DNA of 64,000 nucleotides from positions 20,984,811 to 21,048,810 of the forward strand of contig OX459095.1 in the NCBI GenBank assembly GCA_949775045.1. The letters are read 5' to 3'. This document shows, piece by piece, positions 14,815-64,000 of this stretch; within the stretch, counting starts at the first letter, position 1; the number at the start of each line of letters is the position of its first letter. The position numbers and the translations under genes were made by a program. The notes beneath the pieces were generated by a model that was not told the origin of the DNA, searched no databases, and saw only the letters and a list, made by a program, of their open reading frames with translations. The DNA is from Metridium senile (lineage: Eukaryota; Cnidaria; Anthozoa; Actiniaria; Metridiidae).

Positions 14815-14972
14815 ATAACACAGAGGCTATAGGTTGGCGTAGTTTTTACAAGTGTTGATATTGTGATGCTATTTTGCCAACCATTTTAACAATATACTTT
14901 TTCATTTTCTTTGTTCTAATAACAATGGTTGGCAAAACCATAACAAAATGTCACTGTACGTCCACCTATATA
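14815..14972. mobile_element. MITE with TTGCCAACCATT hairpin, copy 1
   Basis: Contains TTTTGCCAACCATTTT and, 45 bp on, AACAATGGTTGGCAAAACC, forming a hairpin. A second copy in the opposite orientation lies at 60382-60535 inside ornithine decarboxylase. It shares both flanks, including ATGTCACTGTACGTCCAC (first copy) and GTGGACATACAGTGACAT (second copy). Non-coding. Confidence 0.6.
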
Positions 14973-23900: not shown

Positions 23901-26900
23901 TTACAAATTTACCAGTGTTATGCGCTGCAATTATTATTTTCGAGGTATACCAGGCATTAACTCGTTAAGTTATGTTTAACAGTCTACTATGAACAAGCAC
24001 AATACATTCAAACTCACATGTTGATTTTTGCGTTCGGGTTTGTATCGGTTTGTATTTGTAAAGAGGTCTAGTACCCAAGCCTCCCCTTGCGATCTGCACC
24101 TGTGTCCCTTTGACGTTTGATGGAAAAACGGACCAATATTACAAATCACCCTTTCAATATCTTCCTAGCCTGCATTGTGGCTATGTAGGGGGAAAGGGGA
24201 GGGAGAGGGAAATGGCGGAAGAGGGGGGCTGGGGGCTTCTCTCTCCCCCAGGCCCCCTCTTCCTCCTTTTTCCTATCCCTCCCCCGTCCCCTTAGAGAGC
24301 CGCTATGAAGGCTAATATCTCCCATACCCCCAACGATTACAGCTCTTATTATTCATTCAAAATATTTCTTCGTTTCTGATTGGGCGAAATCAACTGGCGA
24401 AGTCTTGGTGCTCTTCCTTGAGCAGGCATTATTGAATCGATGACGTGAGAGCGTCCAACAATTGCAAAGTTATTGAGCGCGTGACGTCACTTAGAACGGC
24501 TTTGCTTTGGTTTTTGAGAGGCAAAATTCAATAACCACTCAACCAAGTACATTTTGCCACATTTGTTTCTTTAGTTATTTCTCATATATTCTGGAAATAT
24601 TCTGAATGAATAATTCGGCTTTTGTATATGATATGAAGAATTATGCAGATCTCGGAGAGTGTTATTCGGCTTTGGCCTTGACAGATAACATACTTATCGC
24701 TCTGAATATTAGTCCCCTTCGTCATCTTAAAAGGTAGCCGGGCCTTTGCATCGAATCTAGACCAACGTTGAGCTTGCAATGTAGACACGACTGAATAATT
24801 GTCCCGCGAGATCAGATGTTAAAAGGTCTCTATCATTGCATTCGATGCAAAGGCCCGGCTACCTTTCAAGATGACGAAGGGAACTGTGAAGGGGAATATT
24901 CTTCAGTCTCATCCCATAATTGCTAGGTGATTTTGCACACGCACTTCCGGCTAGTATAAGCCAATCAGATGCAGTTTAGTCACATTGCCAACAGTTCCAA
25001 AATGGCGTTGTTCGAGAGAGTCCAGAGAGTTGTTTTCCGTGTTGACCATCTATAAATACGTCCTTAACATAACTTTACATTAAAAAGTTATGTGTAGCTT
25101 GGACAACAGAAGCTCATTGCTGCTATGTCAACGATAAAAAATCATTAAAACAAAACGCAAATGCCTCAAAGTAACTGAAATAGTTTTTTGCCTAGATCTC
25201 GAGGCGCCATTTTGAAACTGTTCGTTTTGCCGACAATTAATATTAGTCCTATGCGCGCTTCGAAGCGAGATCACCTGGTTGTTATTGCTAACTTTCATGC
25301 ATCATCATCGTTATTACTTAATTCATTCCTAACCATCTTTTATACACGCTTTTCAGATGCAACTGCCCAATTGGTGCCACAACATCACTACCCTGTGGTT
25401 GCCATGACGACTGCATATTGCGTGATAATGTTTATTGCCTTTTTTGGCAATGTTCTGGTGATTCACGTGGTTGCTACTCGAACCCACATGAAATCCACTT
25501 TTAACTTCTTGATTGTGAACATGGCCATAGCCGATCTCCTTGTTAGCTTGTTTATTATGCCGATGCAGGTGAGTCATGTCTATCAGCTGGTAAATACCCT
25601 GATGGGAAACCCAGGTAGGAGAACCTGGTGGGGTAAAACTACCGGGTATGCTCGTCAGCAATATTCAAAACAACCCCTTAAGCGAGGAATGCGTGGATGT
25701 CAAAAAGTGAGTTTCAAAAACATTTTAGAGCCTGCTTTTATTTTGACTAGCATTTTTTGCTATTCTTTTTTCTTGTCTTTGCCACCAAGACATTCCTTCA
25801 CGCTGCTCGCGAATAAGGCCAAAATTGTTGACTTTAAATTAATGCCATTTTTGGTAATCCCCAATTGTTTTAGTATATTTGATGTTGTTTTATCCACTGG
25901 CAAAGTCCACAAACTTCCTTAAATCACCCTTTATATTGATACATGTTTAAATTACTGTACTAATAAAAGATACTGTAAATCCTTTTAAATGGGCGTGACA
26001 CGGTTTTTTACCCCTAGGAGATACCACACAAAAACACAAAACAAAAAAATTGATGGGATTTTCCTAAATATAACAAATCGCTGATCTTAACTTCTACAAC
26101 CAGTAAATTCGATATACTTTTGTCCCCGATTGCCCCCACCCCCTCCCCTTCCAAGAAGTTATAATCAAATCAGTTTTTCATTTTCTTCATTTGTCAGATA
26201 AAGTTTTTGTACTCTGGTCTACTCTGGATTCCTGGTGGGTTCGGTACCGTCACATGCAAGTGGGTGAACTTTTCAGGGTACCTTTCAATTGCTGCGTCAA
26301 TCATCGCATTAGTTGCCATCTCATTGGACAGATACTTCGCTATAATACATCCATTCAAACACCTACCGGTAGTACGGAACACCAAGATGATTACGTCACT
26401 CATTTGGATTATCTCAGCGTTGTACAGTGCGCCATATTTGGTATTGTTCGACGTTGATAGGTTGATTGGTAACCAATGGAAATGTCGTATGATTTGGACT
26501 ACCATTTCCACTTCATTTGAGAAGCAGTTTGAGTTTGCTCGCAGCTACTTTATGACCACGCTCATGACACTGTATGTATTTCCGCTGATCATTATTGTAG
26601 TTCTTTATATCAGGATTGGGCATAAACTTTCGTCACGCAAGATCCCTGGTCACTCTACTGCTCACACCATACGAAAAGCACAGACCTCCAAGCGGAAGGT
26701 ACTGCGCATGCTTAGTACAGTGGTTACAGTTTTTGCGTTGTGTTGGTTTCCACCTCATCTAATCCACGTTGCCAAGTTCTACGAGACACAGTGGTTCTCT
26801 GGGATATTACAAACAGCTCCTGTAATTGAAAACATTGCATTTTTTATTTGTCACGCAAACAGTGCCATTAACCCATGTCTTTATGTTATGCTGAATGAAA

Positions 26901-51922: not shown

Positions 51923-52568
51923 AATATTGTAGTTTACTGTGGTGGTAGCCGCTTTTCGAGATCTCATCGCGTTCGTCTACAATTTAAGCGCAACTGATTT
52001 CCGTTTTTCCTGTATATCGCTGCTATTAAAATACAAATCTAAAAACAAAGTATATTGTTTTAAATTTCAGACTAAGACTGATAATCTGTAAAAGTTTCAG
52101 GTCAATCGAAAATTGGGAAGTTTGTCAAAACGACGTTTAAAACGGTCTTGTGTGGCTTTCCGAAAACTATAGTGATCCACCTTAAATTATACAGCGCGCC
52201 ACCTACACCAACGAATAGACGAACACTGGTAACCTGGCAAGCATCGCAAGGAAGAGCACGGACTAACGACAGTAGTCCATGAAAAATGCTTCATCTTAAA
52301 GAAATGTACAAGCAAACTTTAATATTTGAGATGCTTTATATTTTACGCTAAACGTTCAGACGGACTCTGTACAAATTCAACCTCCCTTGACAATAACCTC
52401 GGAGGATGTCCAATCGTTGTAATTTTTTGTGTTCGTTTTTTTAAAAACTTAACAATAAATAATTAAAGAAATGAATAAATAAAATAATTAAAAGTGGCAA
52501 TAAAATAAAATTCCTATTTCCATTCTAAGTCCATTCCGTAGAATATACGGGGATCAGTTCGGGTCCTA

Positions 52569-52677
52569 GGCTCAGATTTCAGCCGTTGGGGTTTCGTGCG
52601 CCCGCGATACTCTCCCCACTAAGTTAGTGGGGAGAGTATCGCGGGCGCACGAAACCCCAACGGCTGAAATCTGAGCC
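52569..52677. mobile_element. 109-bp perfect hairpin MITE with TA target
   Basis: Arms of 54 bp are exact reverse complements around a single central G (ends GGCTCAGATTTCAGCC / GGCTGAAATCTGAGCC). TA borders both sides (52567-52568, 52678-52679), which fits a Tc1/mariner-type target. It split a tandem pair of TTCGGGTCCTA in the outer right arm. Confidence 0.85.
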
Positions 52678-53005
52678 TATTCGGGTCCTATCTCGGGTTC
52701 ATTTCGGGTCCTGGGATCACTTCGGGTACAATAACAACTGTTTTGGGGATCACTTGAGGTCCCGGGATCACTTGGGGTCCTGGGATCACTTCGGGTCCTG
52801 TACAGGCCTCTTCTTTTCTCTCACCCCCACCCCCTCCCCCCACCTTTTGTTCCGCCACAGGAAGCCCAGAATCAAAGGAAGCCCAGAGTCAAGAGTTGCA
52901 TGCGGAGGAGGCTAAGTTTTCGGTTGACACTTACCCGTTGCTTTTGTCCCGGCATATTTGTCTTCAGACCCTTTGGGATCATTAGAAACTGAGTTGAATT
53001 CCAGG

Positions 53006-55445: not shown

Positions 55446-58400
55446 ATGAAGGAGAATATAACTGGAATGGATAGCTGTATTGAAGTTGTGAATGATGATA
55501 TTTCCTACAAGGAAATTATTACAGAGAAGATTAATTCTCTTGAACGCGAGGTGAGTGTATGTCTTGTGATGGTTATATGATTCTACTGTTGCATCATGAC
55601 TTAGTTGTCATCAAAGTAGATGTACATCCATTGACAAAAGTAGTTGGCACAATGCATCAATCTCAGCTCCTCCGTTGTGTGCTGAAAATTTATTGTATTC
55701 TTTGTAGCTTCGTTCTATTGTTTAACTTCCTAGTCTTTTGTGTTTCTATTGACTTGCATAGAATGTGTCAGGTACATGAACTAGAAAATTTCAAAACTAG
55801 CAATTATTATAATATTATTATAATTATAATAACAATTAATATATCAATCAAATATATCACAATATATCATTATATTCCTGTTTCATAATTATTTGACATC
55901 AACTAGGAGGGATAGGGGGATAGCAGAGCAAAAGAGATGTTGTCGTAACAATTTTGCTATACATACATATCAACAATTTTAACCCATTTTTTCTTTCCTT
56001 GAAAAAAAATCCAACATGAAAAGAGTGATGTGTGAATGCTTTTCAACATAGAAAAAGTGAGTGATTGCCAGCAGATGAAGAACCTCTGTCGATATACAGC
56101 TGTGAAATGATGATTAATTTAAAGATTTTTATTTCAATATGTATTGTGTAAATACCTCTTAATCACGTTCGGTTGCTATTGCGTTAATTTGTCATTAGCA
56201 CTTTAATAATAAGTAGCCTTCTGTTTTTTTTGAGACAGTCTCAAACTTTACAGTAGTTGATGTGGTAATTGTTTTGCATTTCAGGATTGTGATGATGCCT
56301 TCTACATTGTAGACATGGCAGATGTGATCCTCAAGCATAAGAAGGTATTCATCTTCAATTTTATCAAATAAAAAACTACAAGACTTAGAGAAATATTCCT
56401 ATGCATGACACAACACTTAAGTTCTTCTGGCTTAATTTTTATTCTAATATATGAATTATTTATTTAAAAACTAGTAAGTGGCTTAGTTGCCTAATTTATT
56501 AATATCAACTGGCTTTTAAGACTTGGCAACAACTATTAGTATCATGAATAAGAGAATGAGGTATTATCCTGCCTTTTCTGGAAGGTTATTATAAACATTC
56601 TAATGGTCGTTCTCTTTATTTTCTAGTGGGTTCAATTACTTCCAAGAGTTGAGCCTTTTTATGGTAAGAATATCTAAATAATAATTATATTATTTATCAA
56701 ATATTATTCTTTTAGCCAACTATACTTGATTTACTAATTGATTAATCTGGAGCTCTGATTTTTTTTGTTTCCATTGATGTCTGTGCCAAGTCTGTCTTTA
56801 TTTATTTAATGTTTATTTGTGTGTATCTCATTTTTATGTTGTAAACTGTTTTTATTTTTATTTTTCAGCAATGAAATGCAATGATGATCCTTTGATTCTC
56901 AAATTGCTAGCTGGTCTTGGCGTGGGATTTGATTGTGCAAGCAAGGTACATTTCTAGTATTGATGAATTAAAACAAAAATACTTGCAAATAATGTACCAT
57001 TGTGTGTTTAAAGTTTGAAATAGTGGAAACAGGTCAAGCTTCAAATCATCCAATGTTTATATTTCAATGCTGTAAATCTAATAAATGAATGTTATGATGA
57101 CATAAACAAAGTTTTGATTAGTTTGGAGTGGAAAGGAAATCGTTTTAGGCATTCAACGCGTAAACTGAATTGTCATTTTCTCAAAAACTAAGATTTTTGC
57201 CTTGTAAACTTGATAGAGCTTCTAGTGATATAATAGACTAAATCTGGACAAAATTTGAACTAAATCAAGTTTTCAAGGTTTGGCACAAAATTGAAATTTT
57301 GTTTGATATTTACAGACATCTGCTTTTCATTCATCTACTTATTTATCATTCACTCATTTATAAAATCACACTGTCAAAACCACCCCTATTTCCTACATTT
57401 ATTTGGAAGATTGGCAATGATGAATGGTAACTTGCCCTCTCTTAACATTGTTATGATTAGAGTTGTTTACCAATTTAACTGAGCCATCATTAAGTACATA
57501 TAAATAAAGCATTGTAAATCATTGTAACCTTTCATTCACATTCCACAAATGTATTCATCATTTCTGCAGAGTTACTGTGCTTCGTTAGGCTAAGTCTGTA
57601 ATAACAAAAGTAGGCTGTGCTTAAAATTAAATTTTTCACTGAAAAAAAATGTTATTTTACAATCAGACACACAATTACATCCATTTACAAATATGTTGGG
57701 TGAAAAATAGGAGCAATTAAGTATTTTGTGCTATTCTATTTTTACATTTTATGTTTTTATTTCAGAGTGAAATCCAGACTATTTTGGGCCTTGGAGTACA
57801 ACCAACCAAGATAGTGTATGCTAACCCTTGCAAGCAGGCATCACACTTCAGGTATGGAATAATGTATTGTAAACAGAGGTAACAATTGTTACATTGAGGT
57901 ATAAATGGACCAAATAGGCTCATACATTGCTATGTAAGTTTCCACCAAATTCAAATCTTGTATTAATAAGATTTGTTGTCTTATTATATTGATATCATGT
58001 GGAACATTTTTGGGACACAAGTTTTTATTCCCAATGGTTTTGAATTTGGTGGAAATGTAAGTAGCAATGTGTTAGCTGATTAGGTCTATTGTAAGATTGG
58101 CAGTGATGAAAGGTAACTTGCCCTCTATTAACATTGTTATGATTAGAGTTGTTTACCAATTAAACTGAGCCTTGAAGAATAGAAATCATCTGTATGGTAT
58201 TTAAAGTTATTGTTGTTTATTGAAGTCAATTTGATTGTGTGTCTTTAGGTTTGCTGCCCAGCACAATGTGTCTTTGACAACCTTTGACAATGAAATGGAA
58301 CTCCACAAGGCTAAGAAGCTGTACCCAACAGCTAGGTAGGTTACTGATACACACATTTTAAACCTATTAAATATAAGGGCGACCTCTTCCTATGTTATTG

Positions 58401-61400
58401 CCATAATACTTATATTTTCTACTTTCACATAACCATGATGCCTTCTGTTTGAGGGTAGATATTGTATAAATTTAAAATTGTTTGATTTGGATTACAATTT
58501 GTTTGATTTGAATTACAATAGCTACTCCCCCACCCCCCCCCCCCCCCCCAAAAAAAACCAGAAGGCATTATGGTTATTGTGAAAGTAGAGAATATCAAAA
58601 ATCAATTATTGATTAATTGATTGACAGGTTGATTGATTGATGTACAATAACACATATTTTAAGAATGAAGTGACTTAATTATCATTATTTTATTGATAAA
58701 ATCACAAAACTATCCTAGTGCAATGCACTTATTATTGTAAGATTGGCAGTGATGAATTGTAACTTGCCCTCTATTAACATTGTTATGATTAGAGTTGTTT
58801 ACCAATTAAACTGAGCCATCTTTCAATACATAGTAATAAAGCATTGTAAATCATTCTTCATTCATTCATCTTTTTATCTAATAATTTTGAAAACTATGTA
58901 CTACCTGTTGTCTACACCACTTGTGGTTTTTTAAATTCTCACATGATTTTGTGTGTTTACGGTTAGGTTGATCTTGCGCATTCGCACTGATGACTCCAAA
59001 TCCCTTTGCCAGGTAAGATAACTGTGCTACAATCATTGTAGAGGACAACTCCCGATATTTGATGTCCCATGATTGAGTGATCCAAAAATGGCACTCGATC
59101 AATCGCTGAATACTGCTTAAATCCAACAGTAAATGTCATTCTTTGCTATCACAGGTTACCTTTTCCACCAGGCCATGCTGTTGGTTTGGCACAAAATTAC
59201 AGTTTTGTTTGATATTTACAGACATCTGCTTTTAATTCATCCACTCATTTATCATTCACTCATTTATAAAATCACAAACCCATCCTTGTTTCTTACATGT
59301 AGTATTATAAGTTTGGCAGTGATGAATGGTAACTTGCCCTCTCTTAACATTGTTATGATTAGAGTTGTTTACCAATTAAACTGAGCCATCTTTTAGTCAG
59401 CACATGTCAAGAGAAAGAGCTAGCAGACCTTTTCCACAAGGCCATGCTGGTACAGTCCTGTACAGTGGAAAAAAAATATAGCCTATACTAGCATCAAATG
59501 AGATATACCATTCGATTTACCAGTATTCAGCGATCAGTTGATCAATCACTATTTTGGCTCATCCGGTCAAACTTGTTCCTAGTTTTTTTGATTGATGGCT
59601 GACAGAGTGCTACAGTTGCAAACAAGACCTTAAACTTTGGGGGTGGCACTTCAACTATAATGATAATGACACCATACATTTGTATGATGACATCATACAT
59701 GTGTTTTGTACAATTAGTTTGCCAATAATACACAGTTTCAATACACTGAAACTCCTTTATACTGGACAGTGCTGGTACCAAGAAAATGTCTGGTTTAGAA
59801 GGGTTATGTTTTATTTGAAAATCTCTGTTTCAAGAGATTCTGTTTAGAGGGGTTCTACTGTATGTAGTTATTGTAAAGTTTGTTTTGATTTGTGTTCAGC
59901 TTGGGATGAAGTATGGTGCACCTTTGAAACAATGCCGACACCTTCTGAAAGTTGCCCAAGATCTTGGACTGAATGTTGTTGGAGTGAGGTAATTATTGAA
60001 TGTTCAAAAACTTCATAATAACAACACAATAAACAACACTCTCTTGTGGTATTTGTATCACTTCAAATCATCAAACTCTTCTATTAGAATCCTTAGTATA
60101 ATTTAATTGCTATGGAGATCTCTAGAGGTTTAAAATGCCTGCTTGAAATAATGTCTTGTTTTTGTACCATGTGATTGCTTCTGGACAATTATTTTGCTCA
60201 AAAATAGTCATGTGGCACAAACAAAACATTCCTCCAAGGTAAACTGATAAAGTATGTTTTACCACTCTAGTGATTTCCATTGTATCATTTATTCAATATT
60301 CATTGCATGTAGATTGGAAAACTCCAAAACCAACTTGAAATTCACAAGTTGCTAGTGGAGATGCAACGATTTCTAGTCTAATAAGTGGACATACAGTGAC
60401 ATATTTTATGGTTTTGCCAACCAACCATTGTTATTACAACAAACAAAATTAAAACATCTGTTGGGGAAAATGGTTGGCAAATTAGCATCACAATACCAAC
60501 ACTTGTAAACACTATATGCTCACCTATTGTATTGTTTTTCTTTTAGCTTCCATGTTGGTAGTGGATGCTATGATGCAAGTGCCTTTGCTACTGCTGTACT
60601 TGCTGCTCGCAGTGTCTTTGATTTAGCTGTAAGTATATCTGACCTTCTCACTACTGTTTGTTATCCATTCAACAAAGATTTATTAACTGGATAACTTATT
60701 CTATCCACTCTGTACAAGAGGCTTTTATATGACAGTCATTTAAAGTAATACAATAGAGCAGAATAAATAATGATTTCGTATGACTTCGAAAAGTTCAGTG
60801 CCGTGTGCTTGCCTAGCTGCAAACGTGCTGTTTCTAAAAGTTTGCTGTGCCTTTCCGTGCCTTGACTGGGTTCATGCCATGTGCTTTCACCGCCATACGA
60901 AATCTGCTCTATACTGTAGTGTTGTGTTGTGTTGCGGGTAGCATAACCCAACATGCATCATATGAATACTAAACTATTGTGCATCAACAATACATTGATA
61001 TTGATTTGTTGTTTTATCCTGATAGGGTCAGTTTGGATTTGATTTCAAGTTGTTGGACATTGGAGGAGGATTTCCTGGTACCTCTGATGCTGCCATCTCT
61101 TTTGAAGATGTAAGTCTGCTTTAAAATTAATTATTCATTTATTCACTAATAGTAGTAGTAAACTCGCTCATCCTTCATTCTGTTATATTATCAACTTTGC
61201 CATTTATTCATCCACGTTTTTATCCTGCGTACTTATAATCAATGACAATCAAACATCAGAAATCAATCAGTCAATGAAAATCAGTTAATTGAATATCGAT
61301 AGGCATTCATGGGTATTGATTGGGTGTCACATTCACCAATCAGGTCACAACTATGTTGGCCATCTATTGATCATTGATTGCCAATATCAATCAATTGAAT

Positions 61401-63286
61401 TTTAAGGACTGGCATTGATTGATATTGGCATTGATTTAGCATGAGAAAATTAATTATCATTCTTTTATTTATAAAATCACACTTTGTCAAAACCATCCTT
61501 GTTTCATACATGTAGTATTACAAGATTGGCAATGATGAATTGTAACTTGCCCTCTATTAACATTGTTATGATTAGAGTTGTTTACCAATTAAACTGAGCC
61601 ATCTTTTAATACATATCAAAGCATTGTAAATCATTCTTCATTCATTCATCTTTTGTCAAGTAAGTGTCTGTTCTGTAGAGTTTCTGTGCAATGATTCTGT
61701 ATTTCATCAAGGCTGTGCACACTAGGCAAATGACAATTCCTTTTGTGTGACACATTGAATTCATGTGGTAATAGTTTACCCCAAGACATAATTTTTCCCA
61801 CAAATTCAATCTAGTTTGAGTTTGTCAGTACAGTCACAGTAACACAATACAAATGAATTGGCCTAATACACAGGGTTCGTGCTACTCCTTAAACTCCTTG
61901 AAAACTCCTTAGATTTGATTTACGTTTTTAAGGGCACTTGAAAAGCCCTTGAATTTTAGAAAATCAGCAAAAACTCCTTAAAAACTCCTTAATTCTAGCT
62001 AAAGTAGGGTAAAAATTCTAGTATTGCAAATTTAAGTTAAGTAAAAATTCTAGTATTGTACATCATTTTCGTAAATTCGTAAATTTTCGTATGTCAAATT
62101 TGTCGCAAAAAGTGCTTATAAATTTCTTTTTAGTCCTTGAAAACTCCTTGAAAACTCCTTAGATTTTGTTTACTGACATCAGCACGAACCCTGAATACAG
62201 TGACTGGTCACAACAACTTGTAACCTAGTGTGGCCTTTATAGAACATAATGTTTATTTTGTCGTGAAGTGACTTAATGATTTGTTGTCTCTAGGTGTGCA
62301 ACACTTTGAATCCACTGTTTGAGGAGCATTTCCCTGCCAGCTCTGGAGTACGCATTATAGGTGAACCTGGACGCTACTACAGTGCATCTGCCTTAACCCT
62401 TGCTGTCAATGTGTTTGCCAAGAGAGAGGTTCCATACGATCAACTGCAGGACAAAGACAAGAACAAACTTGCTTCCCTTTGTTGCCCTAAAGAAGATCAA
62501 AAGGTAAGGAAAATATACCATGAAAACCCTGATTATCTAGTATGTTGGGTTACGAATGTATCCGACTGCTACAACAATTGCACAACATAAACCAAACCTT
62601 GACCCTCCAACAAATTTAAAATTCAAAGTTCTTAGAGCCATATGTGATGATTGTTTTCAGGGTTACATGTACTATGTCAACGATGGTGTGTATGGTTCAT
62701 TCAACTGTTTGGTATTTGACCATGCTACTGTTGTACCTGAGACTGTCAAGGAATCCAGTAATGATGCTCTCTACCCATCCAGCCTCTGGGGGCCTACATG
62801 TGACTCCTTGGATTGTATTAGCAAGACTGCTGCTTTGCCAAAGGTAATGCCATTGTACAGCTGGCTAACATGTCATCCAAGGGGGCTTTCATTTATAAGT
62901 ATATGGGGGGGTCGGCAATATTGAGGGGGTCACATTATTTTCGGAAACTATATAGAGGGGGTAGCAGCTTTGCACTGTAACTATGATTGATATTAAGTGC
63001 AACTCTCGTTGCTATTGAAATAGTCGTTCATCTCAACTGTATTTTTTAGGTCCACTTGGGCAACAACAACTTTCATCAAAATGGGACACAATTCATTTTG
63101 TTGCACCTATTGTGTTCATAGTTTACTGCTATTATAAGCTTCATTCTTTTTTATTCCCTTTCTGCAGGTTGAGGTTGGCGATTGGTTGTTCTTCAAGAAC
63201 ATGGGAGCTTACACTGGTTCTGCTGCCTCGACCTTCAATGGTTTTAAGAAGCCCTACAAGTACTATGTCATCAACCATCAGTTCAG
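55446..63286 (+). CDS. ODC1: ornithine decarboxylase, 13 exons seen, C-terminus missing
   Basis: A cytosolic PLP enzyme that turns ornithine into putrescine, the first and rate-limiting step of polyamine synthesis; active as a dimer. Exons: 55446-55550, 56285-56344, 56627-56663, 56869-56945, 57766-57851, 58249-58335, 58967-59012, 59900-59988, 60547-60628, 61026-61109, 62294-62503, 62661-62843, 63168-63286; all GT-AG and in frame. Key residues are present: PLP lysine K70 in AMKCND, H198 in SFHVGSG, GGGFPG at 236-241, EPGRYY with E275 and R278, active-site C368 and D369 in WGPTCD, Y397 in MGAYT. It is therefore catalytic, not an antizyme-inhibitor-like paralogue. 421 residues are seen of about 460 usual; the last exon(s) lie beyond the window or were not recognised. 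ATG chosen by frame and family length. Five introns or intron parts host a snoRNA. Confidence 0.95.
57408..57490 (+). ncRNA. C/D-box snoRNA, ODC intron copy 1
   Basis: C box ATGATGA at 57417-57423, D box CTGA at 57479-57482, closed by TTGGC / GCCA pairing. Internal C'-like TTATGATTA and D'-like CTTA are present. Guide ACTTGCCCTCT precedes the D' site. Located 283 nt before the next exon. Confidence 0.8.
58095..58175 (+). ncRNA. C/D-box snoRNA, ODC intron copy 2
   Basis: C box GTGATGA at 58103-58109, D box CTGA at 58165-58168, closing GGC/GCC. Same guide ACTTGCCCTCT, here followed by ATTA instead of CTTA. The D box ends 80 nt before the next exon, near the spacing favoured for intronic C/D snoRNAs in vertebrates. 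Confidence 0.8.
58413..58595. mobile_element. MITE, TGATGCCTTCTG family copy 2, in ODC intron
   Basis: Ends TTTTCTACTTTCACATAACC and TTATTGTGAAAGTAGAGAA are inverted and bordered by TA. The middle has a C17 run. Copy 1 is at 12534-12700. Confidence 0.7.
58739..58822 (+). ncRNA. C/D-box snoRNA, ODC intron copy 3
   Basis: C box GTGATGA at 58749-58755, D box CTGA at 58811-58814. The terminal stem AAGATTGGC / GCCATCTT pairs over 8 bp with one bulge. Guide identical to the other copies. Confidence 0.82.
59312..59391 (+). ncRNA. C/D-box snoRNA, ODC intron copy 4
   Basis: C box GTGATGA at 59319-59325, D box CTGA at 59381-59384, closing TTGGC/GCCA. Same guide, followed by CTTA as in copy 1. About 100-200 bp upstream it shares extra homology with copy 1 (TTTGGCACAAAATT ... 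TTTGATATTTACAGACATC). Confidence 0.8.
60382..60535. mobile_element. MITE with TTGCCAACCATT hairpin, copy 2, in ODC intron
   Basis: Opposite orientation to 14815-14972; shares TGGTTTTGCCAACCAACCA, AAAATGGTTGGCAAATTAGC and the outer flanks. Non-coding. Confidence 0.65.
60756..60909. mobile_element. MITE with GAGCAG ends, in ODC intron
   Basis: GAGCAGA plus ATTTCGTATG on the left and CATACGAAATCTGCTC on the right are inverted and bordered by TA on both sides. 154 bp, non-coding. Confidence 0.6.
61522..61606 (+). ncRNA. C/D-box snoRNA, ODC intron copy 5
   Basis: C box ATGATGA at 61532-61538, D box CTGA at 61594-61597. Terminal stem AAGATTGGC / GCCATCTT. Same guide and ATTA variant. It shares upstream (TACATGTAGTATTA) and downstream (AAAGCATTGTAAATCATTC) flanks with other copies. 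Far (about 700 nt) from the next exon. Confidence 0.82.
61871..62193. mobile_element. TIR element with CAGGGTTCGTGCT ends, 323 bp, in ODC intron
   Basis: Ends CAGGGTTCGTGCT and AGCACGAACCCTG are exact inverted copies and are bordered by AATACA on both sides (61865-61870, 62194-62199), a 6-bp target duplication. Inside, CCTTGAAAACTCCTTAGATTT occurs near both ends (given in part: GAAAACTCCTTAGATTT). Family unassigned; hAT-like first bases, but hAT makes 8-bp duplications. Confidence 0.7.
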
Positions 63287-63469: not shown

Positions 63470-63690
63470 CTACTGGGCAAACTGTTTCAACATTTGCTTC
63501 AACTAGATGAACATCTCTTCGATTTTGTTGAATGGCAATTTTTAAACGCTTTAAACTCTTTCAACATTGTTAAAATGTGTCTAATCGATTTTGAATTGAT
63601 GTTGAAATAGTTTAAAAGCGTTTAAACATTGCCATTCAATAAAATCAAACGGATGTTTAAGCAAGTTTCACGTTCATCTAGTACCGCTGT
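63470..63690. repeat. hairpin of about 220 bp
   Basis: ATTTTGTTGAATGGCAATTT and AACATTGCCATTCAATAAAA are inverted, with further pairing through CTAGATGAAC / GTTCATCTAG. It overlaps the start of the next TIR element. Confidence 0.6.
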
Positions 63691-64000
63691 ACTTTTTGCG
63701 CATTTGTACCGGCTAAGCCTCAATTCCAAGCAAAGCACGGAAAAATGCTATCGCTTAACAATAAAAGTCACATTTGAATTTTCGTTGAATCGAGGTTATC
63801 CCTTAGCCTCCTCCGCATGCAACCCTGCTGGGTTTCCTTTGTCACCTACTGGGTTCCCTTTACTCCCCCCACCATTTGTTCCGCCACAGGAAGCCCAGAG
63901 TCAACAAAGGAGGCCCAGAGTCAAGAGTTGCATGCGGAGGAGGCTAGTTATCCCTGTATAAATGCTCCTTTTGTACAAACAGTACAGTGGTGCTAGATAA
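63670..64000. mobile_element. TIR element with ATCTAGTACC ends (runs to window edge)
   Basis: Starts TTCATCTAGTACCGCTGTAC and, after a nested MITE, ends GTACAGTGGTGCTAGATAA at the window edge. Related single ends are at 13888-13915 and 31570-31757. The interior (63700-63803) has no gene. Confidence 0.6.
63804..63946. mobile_element. 143-bp MITE with TAGCCTCCTCCGCATGCAAC ends and 9-bp duplication
   Basis: Ends TAGCCTCCTCCGCATGCAAC and the exact inverse. GTTATCCCT on both sides (63795-63803, 63947-63955) is a perfect 9-bp target duplication. Nested inside the 63670-64000 element. Both halves match the ends of the 10-kb structure at 42885-52914. Nine-base duplications are typical of Mutator-like elements, but the family is not proven. 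Confidence 0.85.

Follow-up and report, generated by a model that had tools for sequence, protein, structure and literature searches.

Five SNORD103-like box C/D snoRNA modules in introns of the ornithine decarboxylase gene of the sea anemone Metridium senile

The introns of the ornithine decarboxylase (ODC) gene of Metridium senile most probably harbor five paralogous genes that all encode the same box C/D snoRNA, a relative of SNORD103 (U103). This reading is built on features observed directly in a 64,000-nt stretch of DNA (hereafter the window): the sequence of the modules, their intron positions, their boxes, their best-matching family, the complementarity of their guide and the contrast between module and flank. 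In the mechanism proposed here, five snoRNAs would come out of the ODC introns after splicing and be trimmed to a length of about 75–80 nt. The D' guide ACUUGCCCUC would then pair with 18S rRNA, and the snoRNP would methylate the ribose at yeast-numbered G552 (human G601). The copies would have spread as duplicates from intron to intron within the gene, with selection on the RNA preserving the module while the flanks diverged. Expression, processing, methylation and the within-gene route of duplication are steps that we infer from the sequence.

Table 1. Features of the ODC locus (window coordinates; introns counted from the ATG exon; distances from module to 3' splice site)
Feature	Position	Strand	ODC intron (length)	Distance to 3' splice site	D' box	RF00188 score	Remarks
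Host gene ornithine decarboxylase (ODC)	55446..63286	+					13 coding exons, 421 codons, 3' end beyond reading
snoRNA copy 1	57410..57488	+	4 (820 nt)	277 nt	CUUA	34.3 bits	
snoRNA copy 2	58096..58174	+	5 (397 nt)	74 nt	AUUA	24.2 bits	
snoRNA copy 3	58742..58820	+	6 (631 nt)	146 nt	AUUA	29.9 bits	
snoRNA copy 4	59312..59390	+	7 (887 nt)	509 nt	CUUA	33.2 bits	
snoRNA copy 5	61525..61603	+	10 (1184 nt)	690 nt	AUUA	31.0 bits	
Longer unit, largest extent, around copy 1	57277..57580	+					window self-comparison
Parts of longer unit around copies 3, 4, 5	58673-58874, 59183-59397, 61450-61689	+					window self-comparison

As the original prediction had claimed, five modules of 79 nt each lie in ODC introns 4, 5, 6, 7 and 10, one per intron and all (5/5) in the sense direction, for which the chance is 1 in 32. 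When up to 3 mismatches are allowed, a 49-nt core pattern hits these five sites and no others in the window (mean in shuffled sequence 0.00, n = 100). The module profile recovers them at E ≤ 3.8e-27, the next match having only E 0.65, and when the ODC region is compared with the window by BLAST, the modules match only one another; no convincing sixth module is found in the window by core pattern, BLAST or module profile. A de novo scan of both strands for a C box, a D box and a closing stem of at least 4 bp returns 4 sites, identical with copies 1, 3, 4 and 5, where 20 block-shuffled windows give a mean of 0.25 sites and a maximum of 1; copy 2 is missed because its closing stem is GGC/GCC. Five sites placed at random would each land in a separate intron with probability 0.29, so the one-per-intron spread says little by itself. 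The observation of five modules is borne out and exceeds chance by far. A chance repeat as the source of the modules is ruled out by the shuffle controls of the core pattern and the box scan, and exon duplication is ruled out because the modules sit within introns. The exact core pattern occurs 0 times in viral contigs and 0 times in prokaryotic genome contigs. A loose pattern of C box plus guide gives at least 120 stretches in viral contigs, which were treated as chance.

The host gene is identified as ODC, and not as antizyme inhibitor, by similarity along the predicted protein: among solved structures the product scores 484.6 bits to human ODC and 361.9 bits to antizyme inhibitor 1. What we take to be the PLP-lysine motif and the active-site cysteine motif were recognised by eye in the product. 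Its top protein match is an unnamed protein (89%), followed by the top named relative, an Actinostola (sea anemone) protein with 87% over its full length, and by the next named ones, from Nematostella (73%) and Oculina (73%). In the exon reading of the window, GT follows every listed exon and AG precedes exons 2–13.

Several other repeats are present in the window. Upstream of ODC, a stretch of 113 nt (52567-52679) matches its own reverse complement at 99% identity and is thus a nearly perfect inverted repeat. Two repeat copies with 93% identity (52834-52914 and 63863-63946) flank most of the ODC gene, and part of this repeat recurs inverted near 63802-63841. ODC intron 8 carries a 134-nt repeat (60381-60514), of which an inverted copy at 84% lies 45 kb off (14840-14969). 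Imperfect palindromes are found at 24164-24315 (76.5% self-complementary over 149 nt) and at 63510-63657 (79% self-complementary); the former has weak below-cut-off matches to microRNA families on both strands and the latter one such match. Matches in the ODC introns to MIR8675 (28.0 bits, gathering score 90.8) and mir-2513 (23.7 bits, gathering score 89) are far under threshold and were rejected.

The five modules are 92–99% identical in pairwise comparison, and 71 of their 79 columns are invariant. The predicted intact C and D boxes are indeed there, RUGAUGA and CUGA being present in 5/5 modules. The closing stem that was claimed for every module has 4 bp (UGGC/GCCA) in copies 1, 3, 4 and 5, but merely 3 bp (GGC/GCC) in copy 2. 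It had also been stated that boxes and guide are kept while other bases drift. The 11-nt D' guide (columns 21–31) is constant, but the drift was overstated, since the variable columns number 8 (1, 8, 16, 17, 32, 67, 77 and 79). UGAUGA, the D box and the D' guide contain no variable column; the R of the C box (column 8) and the opening base of D' (column 32) do vary, as does one position of the D-box guide (column 67). The D' box takes one of two forms (Table 1) and is CUGA in none of the copies; degenerate D' boxes are common. C' reads AUGAUUA and agrees with RUGAUGA at 6/7 positions. Folding of single strands of 95 nt gives z values against shuffles of -0.43, 0.29, -1.49, -1.27 and -1.23 for copies 1–5, and stability above shuffles is found in these pieces for none of the five. 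An outer stem of greater length, taken from copy 3, is only suggestive: 81.7% of its cells pair, against 31.7–56.0% when it is slid, and covariation beyond shuffles was not found in it, the one compensatory change being reached by 302/500 shuffles.

A search with Rfam models covered the interval 56500-62800 at a relaxed threshold. SNORD103/SNORD85 (RF00188) is the best family for 5/5 modules (24.2–34.3 bits, E 0.00026 to 0.15), but all five stay below its gathering score of 45 bits. At gathering scores the whole window gives 0 Rfam matches; at E ≤ 1 the whole-window scan keeps RF00188 for 4/5 modules, copy 2 being absent. The families snoZ221_snoR21b, SNORD29, SNORD34 and sR1 also match the same modules, each with a score under that of RF00188, and were set aside. 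The module guide ACUUGCCCUC, located after the C box and ahead of D', is aligned with identical letters of the SNORD103 consensus in 5/5 cases. We class the module RNA as a SNORD103 relative on account of its guide, its placement and its best family, with a subthreshold score and a degenerate D'. We use the names "SNORD103-like" and "SNORD103 relative" because the score is below the gathering value.

The invariant D' guide ACUUGCCCUC (5/5 modules) is antisense to a conserved region of 18S rRNA. This region, TGGAGGGCAAGTCTGG..., begins at yeast position 547 and has 93.3% average primer coverage (PMC3940700, excerpt). Within this published region, copies 1 and 4 pair with GGAGGGCAAGU (11 bp including one G-U) and copies 2, 3 and 5 with UGGAGGGCAAGU (12 bp including one G-U). 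Column 27, the fifth nucleotide before D' (columns 32–35), faces yeast-numbered G552. The chicken-listed A551 is presumably yeast A541 and human A590, and the yeast, human and chicken 18S numberings agree on that basis. The predicted methylation site, yeast-numbered G552, would by numbering correspond to G601 in human 18S, the position given for SNORD103 in an excerpt of PMC8881200. The chicken U103 relative is given with 18S G562 and an 11-nt 5' guide, beside a snR41/U62 relative at A551, in an excerpt of PMC2653536. A control on one of the five copies, copy 3, gave 10 contiguous Watson-Crick pairs to the 18S region in 0/2000 shuffles and 0/1874 window pieces, while 12 pairs with G-U allowed occurred in 18/2000 shuffles and 13/1874 window pieces; therefore the Watson-Crick match is unusual and the G-U-tolerant match less so. 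Decisive for the predicted target is that the match sits at the family's own guide position. For the D-box guide no target was found in the 43-nt 18S region scanned.

Another reading gives the modules a role in cis, in the splicing of ODC itself. Such cis action is described for SNORD2 and its host EIF4A2 (PMC10324135, excerpt), but a guide RNA accounts fully for the conservation of the modules, and we consider cis action highly improbable here.

Self-comparison of the window shows that copies 1, 3, 4 and 5 share a unit extending beyond the snoRNA (Table 1). Such a unit would be expected if the copies were genomic repeats, brought in by several insertions of a dispersed, snoRNA-bearing mobile repeat, rather than ODC-specific genes. 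Against this, the rest of the window holds 0 more copies by pattern, BLAST or profile, the sense orientation is uniform, and the module is better kept than the shared unit around it. In copies 1, 3, 4 and 5 the module has 74 columns identical and 5 variable against 43 and 25 (18 gapped) in the flank (Fisher p 7e-6). The same contrast is seen in copies 1, 3 and 5 (75/4 against 79/31, 28 gapped; p 4e-5) and in copies 3 and 5 (78/1 against 84/28, 6 gapped; p 2e-6), and is weak in copies 1 and 4 (76/3 against 114/18, 12 gapped; p 0.03). Judged from this window, an origin as mobile repeats appears unlikely, and the Fisher tests agree with the original prediction of selection at the RNA level, the module being constrained relative to its flanks.

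Within the preferred reading of paralogous snoRNA genes, the copies may differ in activity. It is possible, though rather doubtful, that RNA is made by some copies alone (e.g. copy 2, or the ones whose stems are good), the others being young or decaying duplicates; this would be compatible with our explanation. Copy 2 has the shortest stem yet lies 74 nt from the 3' splice site, copies 4 and 5 are 509 and 690 nt away, and the low divergence of copies 1 and 4 gives little power. Against partial activity, none of the copies has lost the C box, the D box or the 11-nt guide (5/5 intact).

Copy 2 has the module and about 9 nt upstream in common with the other copies. Its flanks are barely alignable: 6/8 comparisons are within 0.06 of the shuffled level, the exceptions being copy 5 upstream (0.71, shuffled 0.57, 24 gaps) and copy 3 downstream (0.69, shuffled 0.60, 18 gaps). 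Vertebrate C/D snoRNAs typically lie about 70–80 nt from the 3' splice site, and copy 2 is at 74 nt (others 146–690 nt); therefore copy 2 may be the oldest one. Different pairs of copies have different flank stretches in common, which suggests patchy duplication or gene conversion among them. An inverted repeat at 57904-58090 (77-nt arms, 71% complementary) stops a few bases before copy 2 and is possibly an insertion that replaced its flank.

The arrangement resembles known systems. In humans SNORD103A, SNORD103B and SNORD85 are listed together with PUM1 at a single locus (PMC9152224, excerpt), and in chicken three U103 copies occupy PUM1 introns 9, 12 and 21 (PMC2653536, excerpt). With the SNORD103/U103/SNORD85 family (RF00188) the ODC modules share the box layout, the guide in the same place and the predicted 18S nucleotide, and with chicken U103, as far as the excerpt describes it, the presence of several copies in introns of one gene. 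Unlike SNORD103 in PUM1, they have another host, five copies, a weaker D', a subthreshold score and a longer spacer from the C box to the guide. U14 (SNORD14), with three copies in hsc70 introns (PMC7277114, excerpt), likewise is a single C/D snoRNA that recurs in the introns of a protein-coding gene, but the RNA and the host are others. Work on chicken (PMC2653536) and sponges (PMC3412847) describes snoRNAs that duplicated in cis from one intron of a gene to others, and the ODC modules would share this route of multiplication as the excerpts present it. In the available text of these papers "odc" occurs 0 times (PMC2653536) and "ornithine" 0 times (PMC3412847).

SNORA80B belongs to the H/ACA class; it shares the host gene family with the modules and differs from them as a single RNA of that class. 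The Rfam search of 56500-62800 gave no SNORA80-like match at E ≤ 10. Human ODC1 is named as the SNORA80B host gene (PMC12884767, excerpt), so ODC is not without precedent as a snoRNA host, though for a single RNA. In the same excerpt, the levels of SNORA80B and ODC1 show no correlation (R square 0.0148, 10 cell lines), and SNORA80B is argued to be regulated separately from its host. No report of a C/D snoRNA in ODC was noticed in the literature searched (titles and starts of abstracts, few subscription journals), a scope in which absence is unproven. ODC therefore seems to be a new host gene for a SNORD103-type RNA. Given multi-copy U103 in PUM1 and SNORA80B in ODC1, the snoRNA family and its way of multiplying are known already; what the modules add is an apparently new host gene and a high copy number.

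Through the modules, a cnidarian joins the vertebrates in which SNORD103 is described, its predicted 18S target included. This suggests a guide of great age in animals whose host gene is not fixed. They also offer a clean example of a single snoRNA multiplying within its host gene. That transcription of a polyamine gene is tied to ribosome production, as originally proposed, is a hypothesis, and in the human case of SNORA80B and ODC1 no such coupling of levels is seen; if the modules are expressed, the link between ODC transcription and a single ribosomal methylation becomes directly testable. In its strongest form, which we regard as quite improbable, the sea anemone guide for the G601 equivalent would be made mainly from the five ODC introns, and its dose, and thereby one 18S methylation, would track growth-controlled ODC transcription. 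Were this true, polyamine state would be a direct input to ribosome modification.
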